A DNA stretch of 10,355 bases, taken from positions 1 through 10,355 of the forward strand of contig DAOVMD010000071.1 in the NCBI GenBank assembly GCA_030630935.1. The letters run 5' to 3'. A program made the translations under genes and the position numbers. Origin of the DNA: Candidatus Mcinerneyibacteriota bacterium (lineage in GTDB: Bacteria > AUK180 > JAQVHJ01). Positions 2,114 through 8,177 of this stretch are shown here, in pieces. The notes below the pieces were generated by a model. The model did no database searches, was not told where the DNA came from, and saw nothing but the letters and a program-made list of their open reading frames with translations. How positions within the stretch are numbered: position 1 is the first letter of the stretch; each line of letters begins with the position of its first letter.

Positions 2114-2677
2114 ATGGCCACATCCAATGATTTTCGTAATGGAATGATTATAAAAATAGATGAGAAATTAATGAGTATTGTAGAGTTTCTTCACGTAAAA
2201 CCAGGAAAGGGAAATGCTTTTGTTCGGACAAAACTAAAAAATATCTTAACCGGGCAAGTCGTTGAAAAGACTTTCAGGGGTGGAGAAAAGGTTGCTGAAG
2301 TTGTAGTTGAAGCCCGTATGATGGAATATTTATACCCTGACTTACCTAATTATTGTTTTATGGATGGAGACACTTATGAACAGATTTTGATTAGTGAGAC
2401 TTTATTAGGTAACACAATGAAATTTTTAAAACAGAATACACGTGTTAAAATTTTATTCTACAAGGAGAACCCAATTATAATTGAATCACCAACTTTTGTT
2501 GACTTAGAAGTAACTGAGACAGAACCCGGGGTTAAAGGTGATACTGTTTCTAATGTAACAAAACCAGCTACATTAGAGACGGGTCTTGAGATTAACGTAC
2601 CATTATTTATTGAGAAGGGAGATACGTTAAAAGTTGATACACGGAAATGTGAATATGTTGAAAGAATTAGAAAATAA
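2114..2677 (+). CDS. efp: Elongation factor P
   Basis: EF-P binds between the ribosomal P and E sites and rescues ribosomes stalled on polyproline stretches. The protein has 187 residues, the standard EF-P length. The N-terminal KOW-like domain (about 1-60) has the loop HVKPGKGNAFVRTKLKN, whose tip residue K32 corresponds to the lysine that many bacteria modify. A middle OB domain (about 66-125) and a C-terminal OB domain (about 128-185) follow. The family signature is clear near the end: TETEPGVKGDTVSN, then KPATLETG and INVPLFIEKGD. No modification enzyme (EpmA/EpmB, EarP or YmfI type) is in the window, so the modification type is unknown. The Pro-rich tail of the downstream helicase-like protein could be an EF-P client, but that is only a guess. 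accB starts 17 nt after the stop. Confidence 0.98.
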   Translation: MATSNDFRNGMIIKIDEKLMSIVEFLHVKPGKGNAFVRTKLKNILTGQVVEKTFRGGEKVAEVVVEARMMEYLYPDLPNYCFMDGDTYEQILISETLLGNTMKFLKQNTRVKILFYKENPIIIESPTFVDLEVTETEPGVKGDTVSNVTKPATLETGLEINVPLFIEKGDTLKVDTRKCEYVERIRK

Positions 2678-2694
2678 GTAACGAGGTTTAGAAA

Positions 2695-3162
2695 ATGAAT
2701 GTTAAGGATATCGAAAAAATTATTAAGATGCTTGATGGAACAGATATCAGTGAGATATCAATTGAACATGAAGGTGTTAAACTCATGTTAAAACGAGGTT
2801 TTAACAAAGAAATAAGTATAATTCAGGCACCTTCCATGGAAACTGGACAAGCTCCGGTTATTATGTCAACTCCTGCAGTTTCAGGTGCTCTGGTAACTGC
2901 TCAAACTTCTGAAAAAGAAGAATATATCAAAATTACTGCACCTATGGTAGGGACATTTTATCGAGCACCTTCACCAGAGTCTGCTCCCTATGTGAAAGTA
3001 GGAGATATTGTTGATAAGGAGACGGTTGTTTGTATAATAGAAACTATGAAAGTAATGAATGAAATCCAAGCCGAGCAACAGGGAAAAATTGTAAAGATTT
3101 TATTAGAAAACAGCAACTCTGTTGAATATGGTCAGGCAATGTTTCTATTGGAAAAAATTTAA
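2695..3162 (+). CDS. accB: Biotin carboxyl carrier protein of acetyl-CoA carboxylase
   Basis: AccB carries biotin between biotin carboxylase and the carboxyltransferase in the first step of fatty acid synthesis. The 155-residue length is typical of bacterial BCCP. The N-terminal segment MNVKDIEKIIKML followed by ISIEHEGVKLMLKRG matches the usual AccB start. A Pro/Ala/Thr-rich linker covers about residues 45-75, and the biotinyl/lipoyl domain about 78-155 starts ITAPMVGTFYRAPSPESAPYVK. The biotin site is ETMKVMNEI with K119 as the acceptor; the more common form is EAMK, so Ala-to-Thr is a mild variation. The domain has the APMVGTFY and P-E-S-A-P thumb-type region characteristic of AccB rather than of pyruvate or propionyl-CoA carboxylase carriers. 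A GAGG at 2683-2686 precedes the ATG. Unusually, accC is not next but follows the helicase-like gene. Confidence 0.97.
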   Translation: MNVKDIEKIIKMLDGTDISEISIEHEGVKLMLKRGFNKEISIIQAPSMETGQAPVIMSTPAVSGALVTAQTSEKEEYIKITAPMVGTFYRAPSPESAPYVKVGDIVDKETVVCIIETMKVMNEIQAEQQGKIVKILLENSNSVEYGQAMFLLEKI

Positions 3163-3168
3163 AATAAT

Positions 3169-3174
3169 GGAGGA
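3169..3174 (+). promoter_or_regulatory. Strong ribosome binding site for the DnaB-like gene
   Basis: GGAGGA lies 8 nt before the ATG at 3183 and 6 nt after the accB stop. It supports this start, and with it the long charged N-terminal tail of the protein. Confidence 0.8.
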
Positions 3175-3182
3175 AAGTCCGA

Positions 3183-5072
3183 ATGGAACAGGATAATAAA
3201 AAGAAAAAAACTGTTAAGCCGGATGATCTCTTTGCAGAATTTGTTAAAGAGAAAACAACTAAATCATCTGGACCAAAACCTGCAAAATCTGATACGCCAA
3301 AGGAAGCACCTCCTGCTGAAAAATCAAAACCTGCAGCACCGAAAAAAGCAAAAGTTGACTCACCCAAAATGCCTACCACAGAAGCTGAAGAATTTGTAAA
3401 GGGTGAGGAGAAGCTCTTAAGTAAGGAAGACTTTGCGCCTTCACCGGTTAAGGAAGAAACAGATAATTCTCTGGATGCGATTGAGGATGAAGCTGCAGAA
3501 GCTGAAAATGAAGAACTTATTCTTCTAAGCGGTTTTTTAAATGATCGTTTTTTAATATCAACTGCAATTGAAAAAGGTTTCAAACCATTTTTACTTAGAT
3601 CACGCCAGGCTAGAACCTTGTGTTCAGTTATTTTTGAATTATATGATTCACAACGTGAAGATGTTTTAATTGATAATAATTCAGTTAAAAACGAATTAAT
3701 TTATCGAAATTATTTCACTGCAGAAATGCAGGATTTTTATAAGAAACTCATCCAGACTGAACCCCCGCAGCTTGCCCAAATGATGGCTTATATTGATATC
3801 CTAAAAATGAAGACTGGTAAGGATAAATTACGTGAAGTACGTAAGATGATTGATGAGTATATGGGAGGTTATGGTCTAAATAAAGATAAAGAGATTGCCG
3901 ATTTTTCAGGTCAGATTGCTCATCAGTTAATGGCTCTGCAGAAACTGCAATTCCATGAAGTTATTCTTCCAATGAAGTATAAAATGTATGAATTAGAAAA
4001 CGAAATTCGAAACAGAGACAGCAATGTCACTATCGAAAATATGGGATTCTCTATTAAACCATTTTCAACATTAAATAAAACTCTTTCAGGTTTAAGAAAA
4101 GGGTTCTACTATGGTTTAGTCGGTGCTCCAAGACGTGGAAAAACTAATTTCTCTTTACAGATTGCATCTCATGTTGCATCTCAGAATAAAATACCTATTT
4201 TATTTTATTCATGGGAGCAGACTCAAAGAGTTTTAACCTTGAGAATTTTATCTAAAGAAAGTTTAATAAATCCGACCATTCTCCAAACAGAAAATGTTAT
4301 GGAGAACAAGAAGATCAAAGAGAAATTTATGCGTGGTTGGAGAGCTACTGAGGCTTATATGAATTATGTATTTATGATTGAAGGTGGTCAAAAGGATAAT
4401 TTTGAAAGGATTGAAGCCCATGCTTATAATGTTATGCATGAATTTGAAACTGATGATATTGCAATTTTTATTGATTATTTACAAAAAATGCCTTTGGGAG
4501 GTCATATTACTGATCCGCAAACAAGAATTAATCAAATATCATCCGGTCTATCTGAGTTGTCTCTTTCATTGAACTGTCCTATCTGGGCAATTTCATCACT
4601 TGATAAAGAAGGTTGTAAATTAGATGAGAAAGAAAGTTTCCAAAGACCTACAATGCATAATAGTACGGGTTCCGGAGATATTGAATATGATTTAGATGTT
4701 GCATTACTATTCTCAAAGGATTGGCATGATACAGCAGAATTACTTCAGCAATTACGTGAAATTGCACGAACGAAAAATATTTCTGAGGATAAAATACCTA
4801 AGATAGATATTGTTAATTTACATATTGACAAGAATAGAGATGCCCCTCCAGGTGTGTCATCAATTATTCAGTATTTATTCTTCATTGAAATTAATAAGCA
4901 CATTGAGTTGGGATACAAGAATCAGGAAGAAGAACATACCTATACTAAAATTCAAAATATCATCAGAAGGCTTATTAAAAGCCGAATTATTTGGGATGAG
5001 TTTGAAGAGTTAATTGAAGAATTTGATTTGATGGATATTGAAGGTTTACAAGAAGGACCAAAAGGAAGTTAG
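3183..5072 (+). CDS. DnaB-family (SF4) helicase-like ATPase with long charged N-terminal tail
   Basis: The 629 residues exceed the roughly 450-470 of ordinary DnaB. Residues 1-109 are a Lys/Pro/Ala/Glu-rich, probably disordered tail. From about 110 (EELILLSGFLNDR) to 220 is a helical segment resembling the DnaB N-terminal domain. The RecA-like core has Walker A GAPRRGKT at 314-321 (K320, T321), the catalytic Glu E345 in FYSWEQT (DnaB: FSLEM), Walker B FIDYLQKM with D431, a GSGDIEYDLDVAL stretch like the DnaB SGxIEQDADVV segment, and K550/R552 in DKNRDAPPG like the DnaB KQRNGPTG finger. The motif H3 position reads AISSLDK, with S472 where DnaB has Gln (ALSQLSR). A C-terminal extension of about 60 residues is acidic. 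It probably forms an NTP-driven ring, but helicase activity is not shown. Its place between accB and accC is unusual. It is more likely a paralogue than the main replicative helicase. Confidence 0.82.
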   Translation: MEQDNKKKKTVKPDDLFAEFVKEKTTKSSGPKPAKSDTPKEAPPAEKSKPAAPKKAKVDSPKMPTTEAEEFVKGEEKLLSKEDFAPSPVKEETDNSLDAIEDEAAEAENEELILLSGFLNDRFLISTAIEKGFKPFLLRSRQARTLCSVIFELYDSQREDVLIDNNSVKNELIYRNYFTAEMQDFYKKLIQTEPPQLAQMMAYIDILKMKTGKDKLREVRKMIDEYMGGYGLNKDKEIADFSGQIAHQLMALQKLQFHEVILPMKYKMYELENEIRNRDSNVTIENMGFSIKPFSTLNKTLSGLRKGFYYGLVGAPRRGKTNFSLQIASHVASQNKIPILFYSWEQTQRVLTLRILSKESLINPTILQTENVMENKKIKEKFMRGWRATEAYMNYVFMIEGGQKDNFERIEAHAYNVMHEFETDDIAIFIDYLQKMPLGGHITDPQTRINQISSGLSELSLSLNCPIWAISSLDKEGCKLDEKESFQRPTMHNSTGSGDIEYDLDVALLFSKDWHDTAELLQQLREIARTKNISEDKIPKIDIVNLHIDKNRDAPPGVSSIIQYLFFIEINKHIELGYKNQEEEHTYTKIQNIIRRLIKSRIIWDEFEELIEEFDLMDIEGLQEGPKGS

Positions 5073-5097
5073 TAATTTCAGAAAGGAATAAATTTTA

Positions 5098-6435
5098 ATG
5101 TTTTCTAAAATATTAATTGCAAATAGGGGAGAAATCTCTCTCCGAATTATTCGAGCATGTAAGGAATTAGGTGTAAGGACAGTTGCGGTTTTCTCAAATG
5201 CTGATAAATATGCATCTTTTGTACATCTTGCAGATGAGAGTGTTTGTATAGGACCAAGTGCAAGCTCCGATTCTTATTTGAAGATGGAGAGGATTATCGC
5301 AGCGGCTGAGATTACCGATGCAGAGGCTATTCACCCCGGATACGGATTCCTTGCGGAGAATCCGGAATTTGCTGAAATCTGTGAAGCATGTAATATTAAG
5401 TTTATAGGTCCATCTCCACAGGTTATTAGATTAATGGGTGATAAGAATAATGCCCGAATTACAATGTCAAAGATTGGAGTACAAGTTGTACCCGGGAGTA
5501 AGGATATATTAAAAGACGAGAAGGAAGCATTAAAAATTGCTCATGAAATAGGTTTTCCTGTTATAATTAAAGCTTCTGCAGGCGGTGGCGGAAAAGGTAT
5601 GAGAGTTGCACATACTGACATCGCGTTATCTAACGCATTCTTTACCGCAAAAGCTGAAGCGGAAAAAGCCTTTGGAAATTCTGATGTTTATATTGAGAAG
5701 TATATCGATGACCCGCGTCATATTGAGATCCAGGTACTTGCAGATGAACATAATAATGTTGTACATTTAGGTGAGCGTGAATGTTCAATTCAACGCCGTC
5801 ATCAAAAATTAATTGAAGAATCTCCATCTCCAATTGTTACAAAGGAAATTCGAGAAAAGATGGGAAAAGCAGCAGTCTCTGCAGCAAAATCAGTTAATTA
5901 TACTAACGCCGGTACAGTTGAATTTATTATGGATAAAGATTTGAACTATTATTTTATTGAAATGAACACCAGGGTGCAAGTGGAACATACAATAACAGAA
6001 GAAGTAACAGGTTTGGATATTATTAAAGAACAATTAAAGATTGCATCTGGTGAGAAGTTAGCTTTTAAACAGAAAGATATTACATTTCATGGTCATTCAA
6101 TTGAATGTAGAATCAATGCAGAAGATCCGGACAAGGGGTTCAGACCATCCCCAGGAAAAATTACAAAGATACATTTCCCCGGCGGTCCGGGAATTAGAAT
6201 TGATACTTTTATTTATCCGGATTTCTTGATCCCAACATTTTATGATTCATTAATTGCAAAGTTAATTGTGAAAGCTCAAAATAGAAAGGAAGCTATTAAT
6301 CGAATGATCAGAGCTCTGGATGAATTCTATGTTGATGGAGTTAAAACCACAATTAGCTTTTTGAAAATGATTTTGAAAAATGGTGATTTCCAAAAAGGAA
6401 ATTATTCTACAAAATTTATCGAAAGAATTATGTAA
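5098..6435 (+). CDS. accC: Biotin carboxylase subunit of acetyl-CoA carboxylase
   Basis: AccC uses ATP and bicarbonate to carboxylate the biotin on AccB. The 445 residues match the usual length. The N-terminal domain (about 1-114) begins [21 protein letters not shown]. The ATP-grasp domain has the glycine loop [12 protein letters not shown] at 158-169, [16 protein letters not shown], and [10 protein letters not shown] with E288, N290 and R292. The C-terminal domain includes [13 protein letters not shown] with R338. R292 and R338 fall at the same numbers as in the E. coli enzyme. AAAGGA at 5082-5087 precedes the ATG. The protein is a stand-alone subunit, not a fusion with a carrier or carboxyltransferase domain. 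Together with accB it gives half of the carboxylase; the accA/accD-type or propionyl-CoA-type transferase must be encoded elsewhere. The next gene starts 1 nt after the stop. Confidence 0.98.
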
Positions 6436-6436
6436 T

Positions 6437-6844
6437 ATGAGTAATGAAATTGAATATATTAAAAGATTTCATGGTCAATTAGATCCTTATATTATCTTAG
6501 GTTATAAAATGGGGATTTATGCTCTTGAATTACTGAATTGTGACCTATATTGGGATATGAAAATATTTGCAAAAATGGGGCATAAACCACCAATTACTCT
6601 GGTCCTGGACGGATTACAACTTTCTACAGGATGCACTTTTGGAAAGGGAAATATCAAAAATGAAAAATTAAATGAGAATGAAGTGGTCTTTTATTTTGAT
6701 AATAATATCTGTAAGATTAAGATTAAAGCTAATATCCTGAAGGAAATCGAGAACTCAACTGATAAAGAAAATCTGGCATTGAAATATTTCAAACTGGAAC
6801 CTTCTATCTTTTTTAAAATGGAATTATCTTTAACAAAAATTTAA
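6437..6844 (+). CDS. FmdE-like protein with altered metal-site motif
   Basis: The 135 residues resemble the core of the FmdE (formylmethanofuran dehydrogenase subunit E) family. FHGQLDPYIILGYKMG at about residues 10-25 matches the FHGHxCPGxxxGYR helix, and DGLQLSTGCTFGKGNI matches the DAIQxxTGCTxGKGN motif. A following VVFYFDNN strand fits the FmdE pattern of a beta strand after the TGC motif. The usual His-x-Cys of HGHxCPG is replaced by Gln-x-Asp, so a metal site of the standard kind may be lost or changed. There is no C-terminal zinc-ribbon extension, as is often the case for short members. The ATG at 6437, 1 nt after the accC stop, was chosen over an in-frame ATG at 6380, which would lie inside accC. 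FmdE-like proteins occur beside molybdenum or tungsten enzymes, and the next two genes are of that kind. Substrate unknown. Confidence 0.72.
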   Translation: MSNEIEYIKRFHGQLDPYIILGYKMGIYALELLNCDLYWDMKIFAKMGHKPPITLVLDGLQLSTGCTFGKGNIKNEKLNENEVVFYFDNNICKIKIKANILKEIENSTDKENLALKYFKLEPSIFFKMELSLTKI

Positions 6845-6870
6845 CAGTTTTTCTAAATTAGGAATCTAAT

Positions 6871-7332
6871 ATGGGTAAAATAAATTTTATACTAAATGGT
6901 AAATCAGTTGAATTCAATTGCCCTGATAATTGGACATTGCTGCGGATGTTAAGAGATGGTTTCAGGTTAACAGGTACAAAAAGGGGTTGCGGAAAAGGTG
7001 AATGTGGTGCATGCTCAGTTATTCTTGATAATAAAATTGTTAATTCATGTTTGATTTTAGGAAATCAGATCGATGGGACGGAAATTACTACAATTGAAGG
7101 GTTATCTTCAAATGGTGAACTTGACCGAATTCAACAAGCATATATTGATTATGGTGCAATTCAATGCGGGTTTTGTACTCCCGGAATGGTTTTAGCTACA
7201 AAAGTTTTACTGATGAAAAATAAATCACCAAATTTAGAAGAAGTGAGAGAAGCTCTCTCCGGAAATCTTTGTAGATGCACAGGATATAGAAAAATTTTTG
7301 AAGCTGTTTTATCGTTAAAGGATGAAAAATGA
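6871..7332 (+). CDS. 2Fe-2S subunit of a molybdenum hydroxylase (CoxS/XdhC type)
   Basis: This small subunit moves electrons between the molybdenum centre and FAD in enzymes such as xanthine dehydrogenase, CO dehydrogenase and nicotinate or aldehyde hydroxylases. At 153 residues it has the normal length. The plant-ferredoxin-type cluster is bound by C40, C45, C48 and C60 (CGKGECGACS...SC). The second helical-domain cluster is bound by C99, C102, C134 and C136 (QCGFCTPGM, then LSGNLCRCTGY). All eight ligands and the Q98 next to the cofactor are present, so the protein looks functional. There is no Tat signal, so it is probably cytosolic. AGGA at 6860-6863 precedes the ATG. Its stop overlaps the start of the FAD subunit by 4 nt, a sign of translational coupling. 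The substrate cannot be read from this subunit. Confidence 0.95.
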   Translation: MGKINFILNGKSVEFNCPDNWTLLRMLRDGFRLTGTKRGCGKGECGACSVILDNKIVNSCLILGNQIDGTEITTIEGLSSNGELDRIQQAYIDYGAIQCGFCTPGMVLATKVLLMKNKSPNLEEVREALSGNLCRCTGYRKIFEAVLSLKDEK

Positions 7333-8177
7333 AAAAGTTTAAATATATTAGACCGAATAATTTAAAGGATGCCTGTTCCATTTTAAAAAGGGAAAATGAT
7401 ATAAAGATTCTTGCCGGAGGTACCGATTTACTTGTTCAAATTAAAGACAGAATGAAAACTCCTGAGAATCTTTTAGATATCACTTATTTATCTGAGTTAA
7501 GAGTTATTAGGAATAATTCAAATTATCTTGAAATAGGGGCATTGTCGACTCACCAGGACATCATTGATTCTGACCTTGTTTCTAATAATGCCGGTATTCT
7601 ACAACAAGCATGTATTCAAATTGGGTCCCCGCAAATTAGAAATAGAGGAACAATTGGCGGGAACATTATTAATGCTTCACCTGCTGCTGACACATTACCA
7701 CCATTATTTACACTTGAGTCTGAATTAATTTTAATATCTGAATCGGGGGAGAGAACTGTAAAAATTAAAGATTTCTTTCAAGGCCCGGGTAGGTCTATTA
7801 TTGAACCGAATGAAATTTTAAAATCAATTCGATTTAAAAAACATTCGAATTGGTTAGGGCACTTTAAAAAATTAGCAAGCAGAAAAGCTCTTGCAATATC
7901 TAAATTATCGGTTGCTGGATTATTCCTTGTTAATAACGGAACTATTGATCAAGCGCGAATAGCTTTTGGCGCCGTCGGTCCGACAATTCTTATAGGAAAA
8001 GATACGGTAGCTCTTATATTAAATAAGAAGATAAGTTCAATCTCTGAAAAAGAAATTTCGGATGCGGTTATTAAAGATATCTCTCCAATTTCTGATCTGA
8101 GATCAACTCAGGAATATAGAAAGGCGATTACGACTATACTAGTGCAGCGAATTCTACAGAATTTAATGAAAGCTTAA
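7329..8177 (+). CDS. FAD-binding subunit of a molybdenum hydroxylase (CoxM/XdhB type)
   Basis: This medium subunit holds FAD and passes electrons from the 2Fe-2S subunit to the final acceptor. The 282 residues match the family. The FAD pyrophosphate contacts are visible as AGGTDLL at 29-35 and the TIGGN turn at 108-112, inside GSPQIRNRGTIGGNIINASP. The C-terminal CO-dehydrogenase flavoprotein domain spans about 175-280 and ends with EYRKAITTILVQRIL, a typical family ending. The start ATG overlaps the stop of the 2Fe-2S gene (ATGA). In related operons the third subunit, the molybdopterin-binding large chain of about 700 residues, is normally adjacent; here a small NTPase follows after 4 nt instead. 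The complex therefore needs a partner encoded elsewhere, or the pair serves another acceptor protein. Confidence 0.94.
   Translation: MKKFKYIRPNNLKDACSILKRENDIKILAGGTDLLVQIKDRMKTPENLLDITYLSELRVIRNNSNYLEIGALSTHQDIIDSDLVSNNAGILQQACIQIGSPQIRNRGTIGGNIINASPAADTLPPLFTLESELILISESGERTVKIKDFFQGPGRSIIEPNEILKSIRFKKHSNWLGHFKKLASRKALAISKLSVAGLFLVNNGTIDQARIAFGAVGPTILIGKDTVALILNKKISSISEKEISDAVIKDISPISDLRSTQEYRKAITTILVQRILQNLMKA

Follow-up and report, generated by a model that had tools for sequence, protein, structure and literature searches.

DnaBX, the name given here to a 629-residue DnaB-family protein, represents a distinct, ancient, and strongly conserved family of ring ATPases that spans at least six bacterial phyla and has apparently gone unstudied. 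Its gene, an open reading frame with an ATG start at 3183–5072 (+), lies in the window, the whole stretch of 10,355 nucleotides that was analyzed, and profiles, phylogeny, and fold matching identify the product as a paralogue of DnaB (SF4, RecA fold). The presence of separate DnaB and RadA proteins in the same genome, the placement of DnaBX in a clade of its own, and its altered loop residues favor a non-replicative ring. The best explanation, and on balance a probable one, is that DnaBX is ATP-driven, non-replicative, and the third member of the cell's DnaB/RadA RecA-fold set. What matters is less the address of the gene in an acc operon than the gene itself, a member of an ancient family of DnaB-like ATPases in which the residues for coupling to DNA are altered. 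A search of the openly available literature found nothing relevant on such a DnaB paralogue or on an accB-dnaB-accC operon, and no Pfam or NCBIfam model specific to DnaBX was found. The protein probably carries the annotation “replicative DNA helicase”, a label that would mislead automated dnaB counts and trees.

Operon setting

The DnaBX gene sits between accB (BCCP; 2695–3162; TIGR00531, 149 bits against a cut-off of 115) and accC (biotin carboxylase; 5098–6435; TIGR00514, 715 bits against a cut-off of 626), separated from them by 20 and 25 nt, respectively. A GGAGG ribosome-binding site, read directly at 3169–3173, lies 9 nt before the ATG. The placement of a DnaB-family gene with its own ribosome-binding site between two acc genes of the same direction, as given in the preliminary description, is thus accurate. 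In the 5′ part of the window all genes are on the + strand, in the order of a gene for a Roadblock/LC7-domain protein with acidic repeats (2–1021, open at the window start), a pepP-like peptidase gene (1025–2098), efp (EF-P; 2114–2677), accB, DnaBX, and accC. The Roadblock/LC7 protein carries tandem acidic D-I-F-x-A-A-T-E-E-P-V-K repeats, to which the PDDLFAEF motif in the DnaBX tail is similar in flavor, and a TPR-Roadblock protein occupies the same position in class relatives. No convincing promoter or terminator is found between accB, DnaBX, and accC, and predicted sites in 2600–5400 stay at the level of shuffled sequences, so co-transcription of the three genes is plausible from the sequence.

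Beyond accC, the + strand continues with an FmdE-domain gene, two molybdenum-hydroxylase-like subunits, a P-loop NTPase, and an inositol-monophosphatase-like gene, the hydroxylase-like and monophosphatase-like products being named from their sequences only. The region 6380–8177 comprises the FmdE-domain gene followed by genes that resemble those for the small and the medium subunit of molybdenum hydroxylases; the window shows no gene for a large subunit.

Five other genomes of the class (AUK180/Ca. Uvuciota) permit the gene order to be read, and every one of them, JAGGYO010000036.1 of isolate AUK180 included, shows pepP-efp-accB-DnaBX-accC. AUK180 is listed as Candidatus Uvuciota (PMC11382960), to which the class of the window would accordingly belong. 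One genome of another phylum, G361, has efp-accB-DnaBX-accC, with accC reading as two overlapping frames; efp is thus a conserved operon member in both phyla and pepP in the class. The G361 relatives G092 and G232 are without DnaBX and have accB and accC ~10 nt apart, and in carriers whose DnaBX gene is located elsewhere (e.g., G082 and G394), accB and accC are likewise adjacent. The insertion between accB and accC is therefore genuine and of long standing, and it is restricted to two lineages, the class and G361. The conservation of this order in related genomes, which the preliminary description had raised, is borne out within these limits. The acc operon would provide a lineage-specific expression slot beside housekeeping genes, and the location of DnaBX there does not speak for a role in fatty-acid synthesis.

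Family assignment and predicted fold

DnaBX scores 99.9 bits against the DnaB_C profile (cut-off 27) and 118.5 bits against the DnaB profile TIGR00665; the latter score falls far below the equivalog cut-off of 385, and the protein is therefore DnaB-like rather than DnaB. Profile, Walker A and B motifs, catalytic glutamate, lysine and arginine fingers, and fold all place it in the DnaB superfamily (SF4, DnaB_C). A structural model of residues 105–629, built from an alignment that included 26 phage DnaB-like proteins and may therefore be biased toward DnaB, has a mean pLDDT of 77.5, with most of the N-terminal domain above 85. It matches 4esv_C with a Z of 29.5 (rmsd 5.1, 421 residues aligned) and 7t20_B with a Z of 28.9 (rmsd 4.5, 434 residues). 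The predicted fold is that of full-length DnaB, with a collar domain, a linker, and a RecA core.

DnaBX shares with the replicative helicase DnaB (PF03796, TIGR00665; 4ESV, 7T20) the full-length fold, the two-domain layout, the Walker A and B motifs, the catalytic glutamate, and the lysine and arginine fingers. It differs in being only ~20–25% identical, in its Walker A sequence GAPRRGKT, in the loss of the H3 glutamine and the loop arginine, in a GxGDIEYDxD motif, in an extra C-terminal helix, and in coexisting with a true DnaB. RadA/Sms is likewise a RecA-fold ring ATPase of the DnaB superfamily, and some DnaBX proteins have an N-terminal CxxC...CxxC ribbon as it does; however, the collar domain of DnaBX is of the DnaB type, carriers have a distinct gene for RadA, and the two occupy separate tree branches. 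KaiC, a RecA-fold hexamer that acts on protein rather than DNA, matches the model with a Z of 19.4, but DnaBX combines one RecA domain with a DnaB collar instead of having the tandem CI/CII arrangement, and its match to DnaB is much better. Phage DnaB-like helicases (phrog_19, phrog_243) share the profile match, with 114 bits to phrog_19, whereas their sampled members fall outside the DnaBX clade and are without its diagnostic motifs.

Domains and active-site residues

Residues 1–108 (3183–3506) form a charged, low-complexity tail with 21 K/R, 26 D/E, and 12 P. The long charged tail reported in the preliminary description is real in this copy, but its length varies among relatives, being shorter within the class, and it is absent from much of the family. 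Within it, PDDLFAEFVK (residues 13–22; 3219–3248), which reads NPEDLFAEFIK in class relatives, is conserved in 6/6 class members and is a possible docking motif. A zinc ribbon is absent from the N-terminus of the window's protein; CxxC...CxxC zinc-ribbon-like segments do occur at the N-terminus of some other DnaBX proteins, namely those of the G261 phylum and G090 (L115, L116, L117, L243, L245, L246, and L247), and are absent from the class.

The tail is followed by a helical domain that matches the DnaB collar by profile, model, and fold (residues ~110–205; 3510–3797). The ATPase residues comprise the Walker A motif GAPRRGKT (residues 314–321; 4122–4145), invariant in 27/27 DnaBX proteins, the catalytic Glu345 (4215–4217), and the Walker B Asp431 in IDYLQKMP (4473–4475), the latter two also invariant. 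Lys550-Asn-Arg552 (4830–4838), similarly invariant, supplies the lysine and arginine fingers, which in DnaB are K418 and R420 (PMC8421360). A helical extension completes the protein (residues 580–629; 4920–5069). In the window's copy, the acidic C-terminal extension of the preliminary description is acidic over its final 29 residues only (10 D/E, 2 K/R); across the class, this extension is conserved as a helical segment.

The residues that couple DnaB to DNA are different in DnaBX, as judged from alignment columns of 27 DnaBX and 33 DnaB proteins. The side chain of the DnaB loop arginine, R381 in Geobacillus stearothermophilus and R403 in Escherichia coli, contacts an ssDNA phosphate (PMC6391071, PMC8421360). 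This arginine is present in 33/33 DnaB and 0/27 DnaBX proteins, three of which have lysine instead (G261, G090, and G124), and the glutamate beside it in DnaB is glycine in all DnaBX. The corresponding loop motif TGSGDIEYDLD (residues 495–505; 4665–4697) replaces the DnaB sequence RESGxIEQDAD, and its GxGDIEYDxD pattern is invariant in the family. In the alignment with the G. stearothermophilus protein, R381, E382, and G384 correspond to Thr495, Gly496, and Gly498 of DnaBX. In cystoviral P4, a related RecA-fold motor, the H3 residue senses the γ-phosphate and drives the nucleic-acid loop (PMC3814363). At this position all 33 DnaB proteins and none of the 27 DnaBX proteins have glutamine; the window's copy has Ser472 (4596–4598), and the family has S, A, or P. 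The role of H3 in P4 presumably carries over to the DnaB glutamine.

Together, these replacements suggest a loss of DnaB-type ssDNA binding. They can suggest it at most, because two of the three DnaB loop contacts to ssDNA are made by the backbone amides of E382 and G384 (PMC8421360), which sequence cannot reveal, and because three members carry lysine. DNA unwinding by DnaBX appears doubtful since all members compared lack two of the residues by which DnaB couples to DNA.

Phylogeny and distribution

A RecA-core tree places the DnaBX proteins in one clade, with support of 100/100, outside all sampled cellular and phage DnaB proteins and on a stem of ~3 changes per site; rooting is not settled. 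With RadA included, the clade is recovered at 97/96, and the RadA rows split off with 100/99, separate from DnaBX; both branches are long, and the program warned of long branches meeting. The comparison of the core with DnaB, phage helicases, and RadA that the preliminary description had proposed thus yields a separate DnaBX clade. Branches within this clade are short, even between phyla, and the G361 protein is sister to those of the class (98/95).

A profile search of 386 family-spread genomes returned 16 carriers and was followed by phylum-level searches. DnaBX is found in 34/54 genomes of the G019 phylum, 33/39 of the G261 phylum (30 of them clear), 36/43 of the G082 phylum, 1/4 of the G361 phylum, 1/1 of the G090 phylum, and 6/7 of the class, amounting to ~108 genomes in six phyla. 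Matches in G468, G469, and G471 (1e-41 to 1e-44) are not counted as clear DnaBX, and three genomes (G472–G474) hold two copies. G001, a 72% complete genome of the same family as the window's, has no DnaBX match and also no DnaB or BCCP match, and is uninformative. A codon comparison of two close relatives gives 23 synonymous differences against 1 non-synonymous, indicating purifying selection. Within the class, DnaBX is 67–68% identical and better conserved than the DnaB of the same genomes, which lies on long, divergent branches.

The window's genome encodes a separate full DnaB on another contig (C124, 322 bits), the standard dnaB that the preliminary description had proposed to look for, as well as RadA. 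DnaBX, full DnaB, and RadA are all present in nearly every carrier among 28 genomes scanned. No full DnaB was found in carrier G392, a genome that is 75% complete, which may reflect incompleteness.

Gene neighborhoods in other phyla

The neighbors of DnaBX vary with lineage, and no one partner accounts for all contexts. In the G082 phylum, 14/20 loci have DnaBX directly beside a TPR-MshEN-T2SSE gene and/or pilB-pilT-pilC; the adjoining triple-fusion gene is that of L281:11210-13513 and its equivalents. These genomes have 2–8 T2SSE genes per 2.2–4.8 Mb, which puts the chance of one lying within ~1 kb of DnaBX on the order of 0.5% by rough estimate. The six loci without a pilus-gene link belong to families f275 (five) and f276 (one). 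Five class genomes have an MshEN-SPOR gene ~2.25 kb downstream (e.g., L039:13790-15541), conserved downstream of accC in the class, in which MshEN is fused to SPOR with no secretion ATPase domain, and a pilB-like gene lies 2.3–2.7 kb downstream of DnaBX in G090 and G466. Two families of the G019 phylum have a GerMN gene ahead of DnaBX in 14/14 loci, and one of them has dnaA-dnaN-recF-dciA beside DnaBX with only the GerMN gene between. A lipoprotein-like gene follows DnaBX in 12/19 loci of the G261 phylum. A similarity cluster over 38 loci was dropped, as it consisted mostly of spurious antisense reading frames.

Proposed function

The predicted fold and the fingers imply that DnaBX would form an ATP-hydrolyzing hexamer, in which the intersubunit lysine and arginine fingers would work as in DnaB. 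The channel loop would grip or sense something other than ssDNA held in the manner of DnaB, candidate substrates being nucleic acid in some other state or a partner protein, and the protein would act as a remodeling or regulatory ring rather than as a fork helicase. Its conservation through most of several phyla points to a likely basic role. With its DNA-coupling residues missing, DnaBX offers a natural experiment on a DnaB ring without the usual ssDNA grip.

It is scarcely credible that DnaBX does no more than serve as the replicative helicase or that it is a helicase captured from a phage. The DnaB_C match would fit either, but the window's genome and nearly all carriers tested hold a second, full DnaB, so a replicative role is rejected; the viral scan returned generic DnaB relatives only, ~25–30% identical, those placed in the tree fall outside the DnaBX clade, and the spread inside several phyla is broad rather than patchy, which dismisses phage capture as well. 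The non-replicative role that the preliminary description had offered as its second option is the one favored by the conserved gene order and the second dnaB. Its first option, in which the acc operon would link DNA replication with fatty-acid synthesis, is very improbable: the accB-DnaBX-accC order is conserved in the class and G361, but DnaBX lies elsewhere in the other four phyla, G082 and G394 keep accB and accC adjacent without it, and the operon also contains efp and pepP, which makes the neighborhood one of general housekeeping. Given the varied neighbors elsewhere (pil, GerMN, lipoprotein) and the doubtful unwinding, a special tie between a DNA process and lipid supply is unsupported, and as a general function it is rejected, the gene lying elsewhere in most carriers. 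A defense system was also considered and rejected, as PADLOC gave no match.

An accessory DNA motor with RadA-like tasks in repair, fork restart, or recombination, moving on DNA with modified loops, is the closest competitor, its chances falling somewhat below even. Nucleic acid is the substrate of nearly all DnaB relatives, the predicted DnaB architecture is complete, the zinc ribbons of the G261 phylum and G090 recall RadA, and one G019-phylum family places the gene beside dnaA-dnaN-recF-dciA. Yet the DNA-loop arginine and H3 glutamine are lost in 27/27 members compared, carriers already have RadA, and the oriC-like neighborhood is confined to that one family. A protein-acting or signaling ring linked to type IV pilus and envelope machinery is rather less likely. 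It would account for the 14/20 G082-phylum loci, in genomes where T2SSE genes are few, for the MshEN-SPOR gene in the class, and for the pilB-like genes near the G090 and G466 copies; however, the direct operon link is seen in one phylum and may reflect one event, six loci there are without it, no pilus gene lies nearby in the window, and the G019 phylum has other neighbors. In its boldest form, DnaBX would be a near-universal core protein of several phyla that has given up ssDNA translocation and turned into a motor for protein remodeling or signaling, in partnership with MshEN proteins and the motor ATPases of type IV pili, a proposal that is unlikely as a whole. The reading preferred here remains the non-replicative ring.

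Variation in the coexisting DnaB proteins

The DnaB proteins of one class family (L104–L108, from G002–G006) lie on a long branch (1.2–1.6) away from the DnaB of the window's genome, which suggests replacement or fast evolution. The profile match of the standard DnaB is interrupted in four genomes: in G353, G082, and G224 (L100–L102), a gap of >1 kb follows immediately on the Walker A region, and in G388 (L103), one of ~1.3 kb lies close to the match's C-terminal end. The open frames of these four split genes are 785–892 aa long, a pattern expected of inteins.
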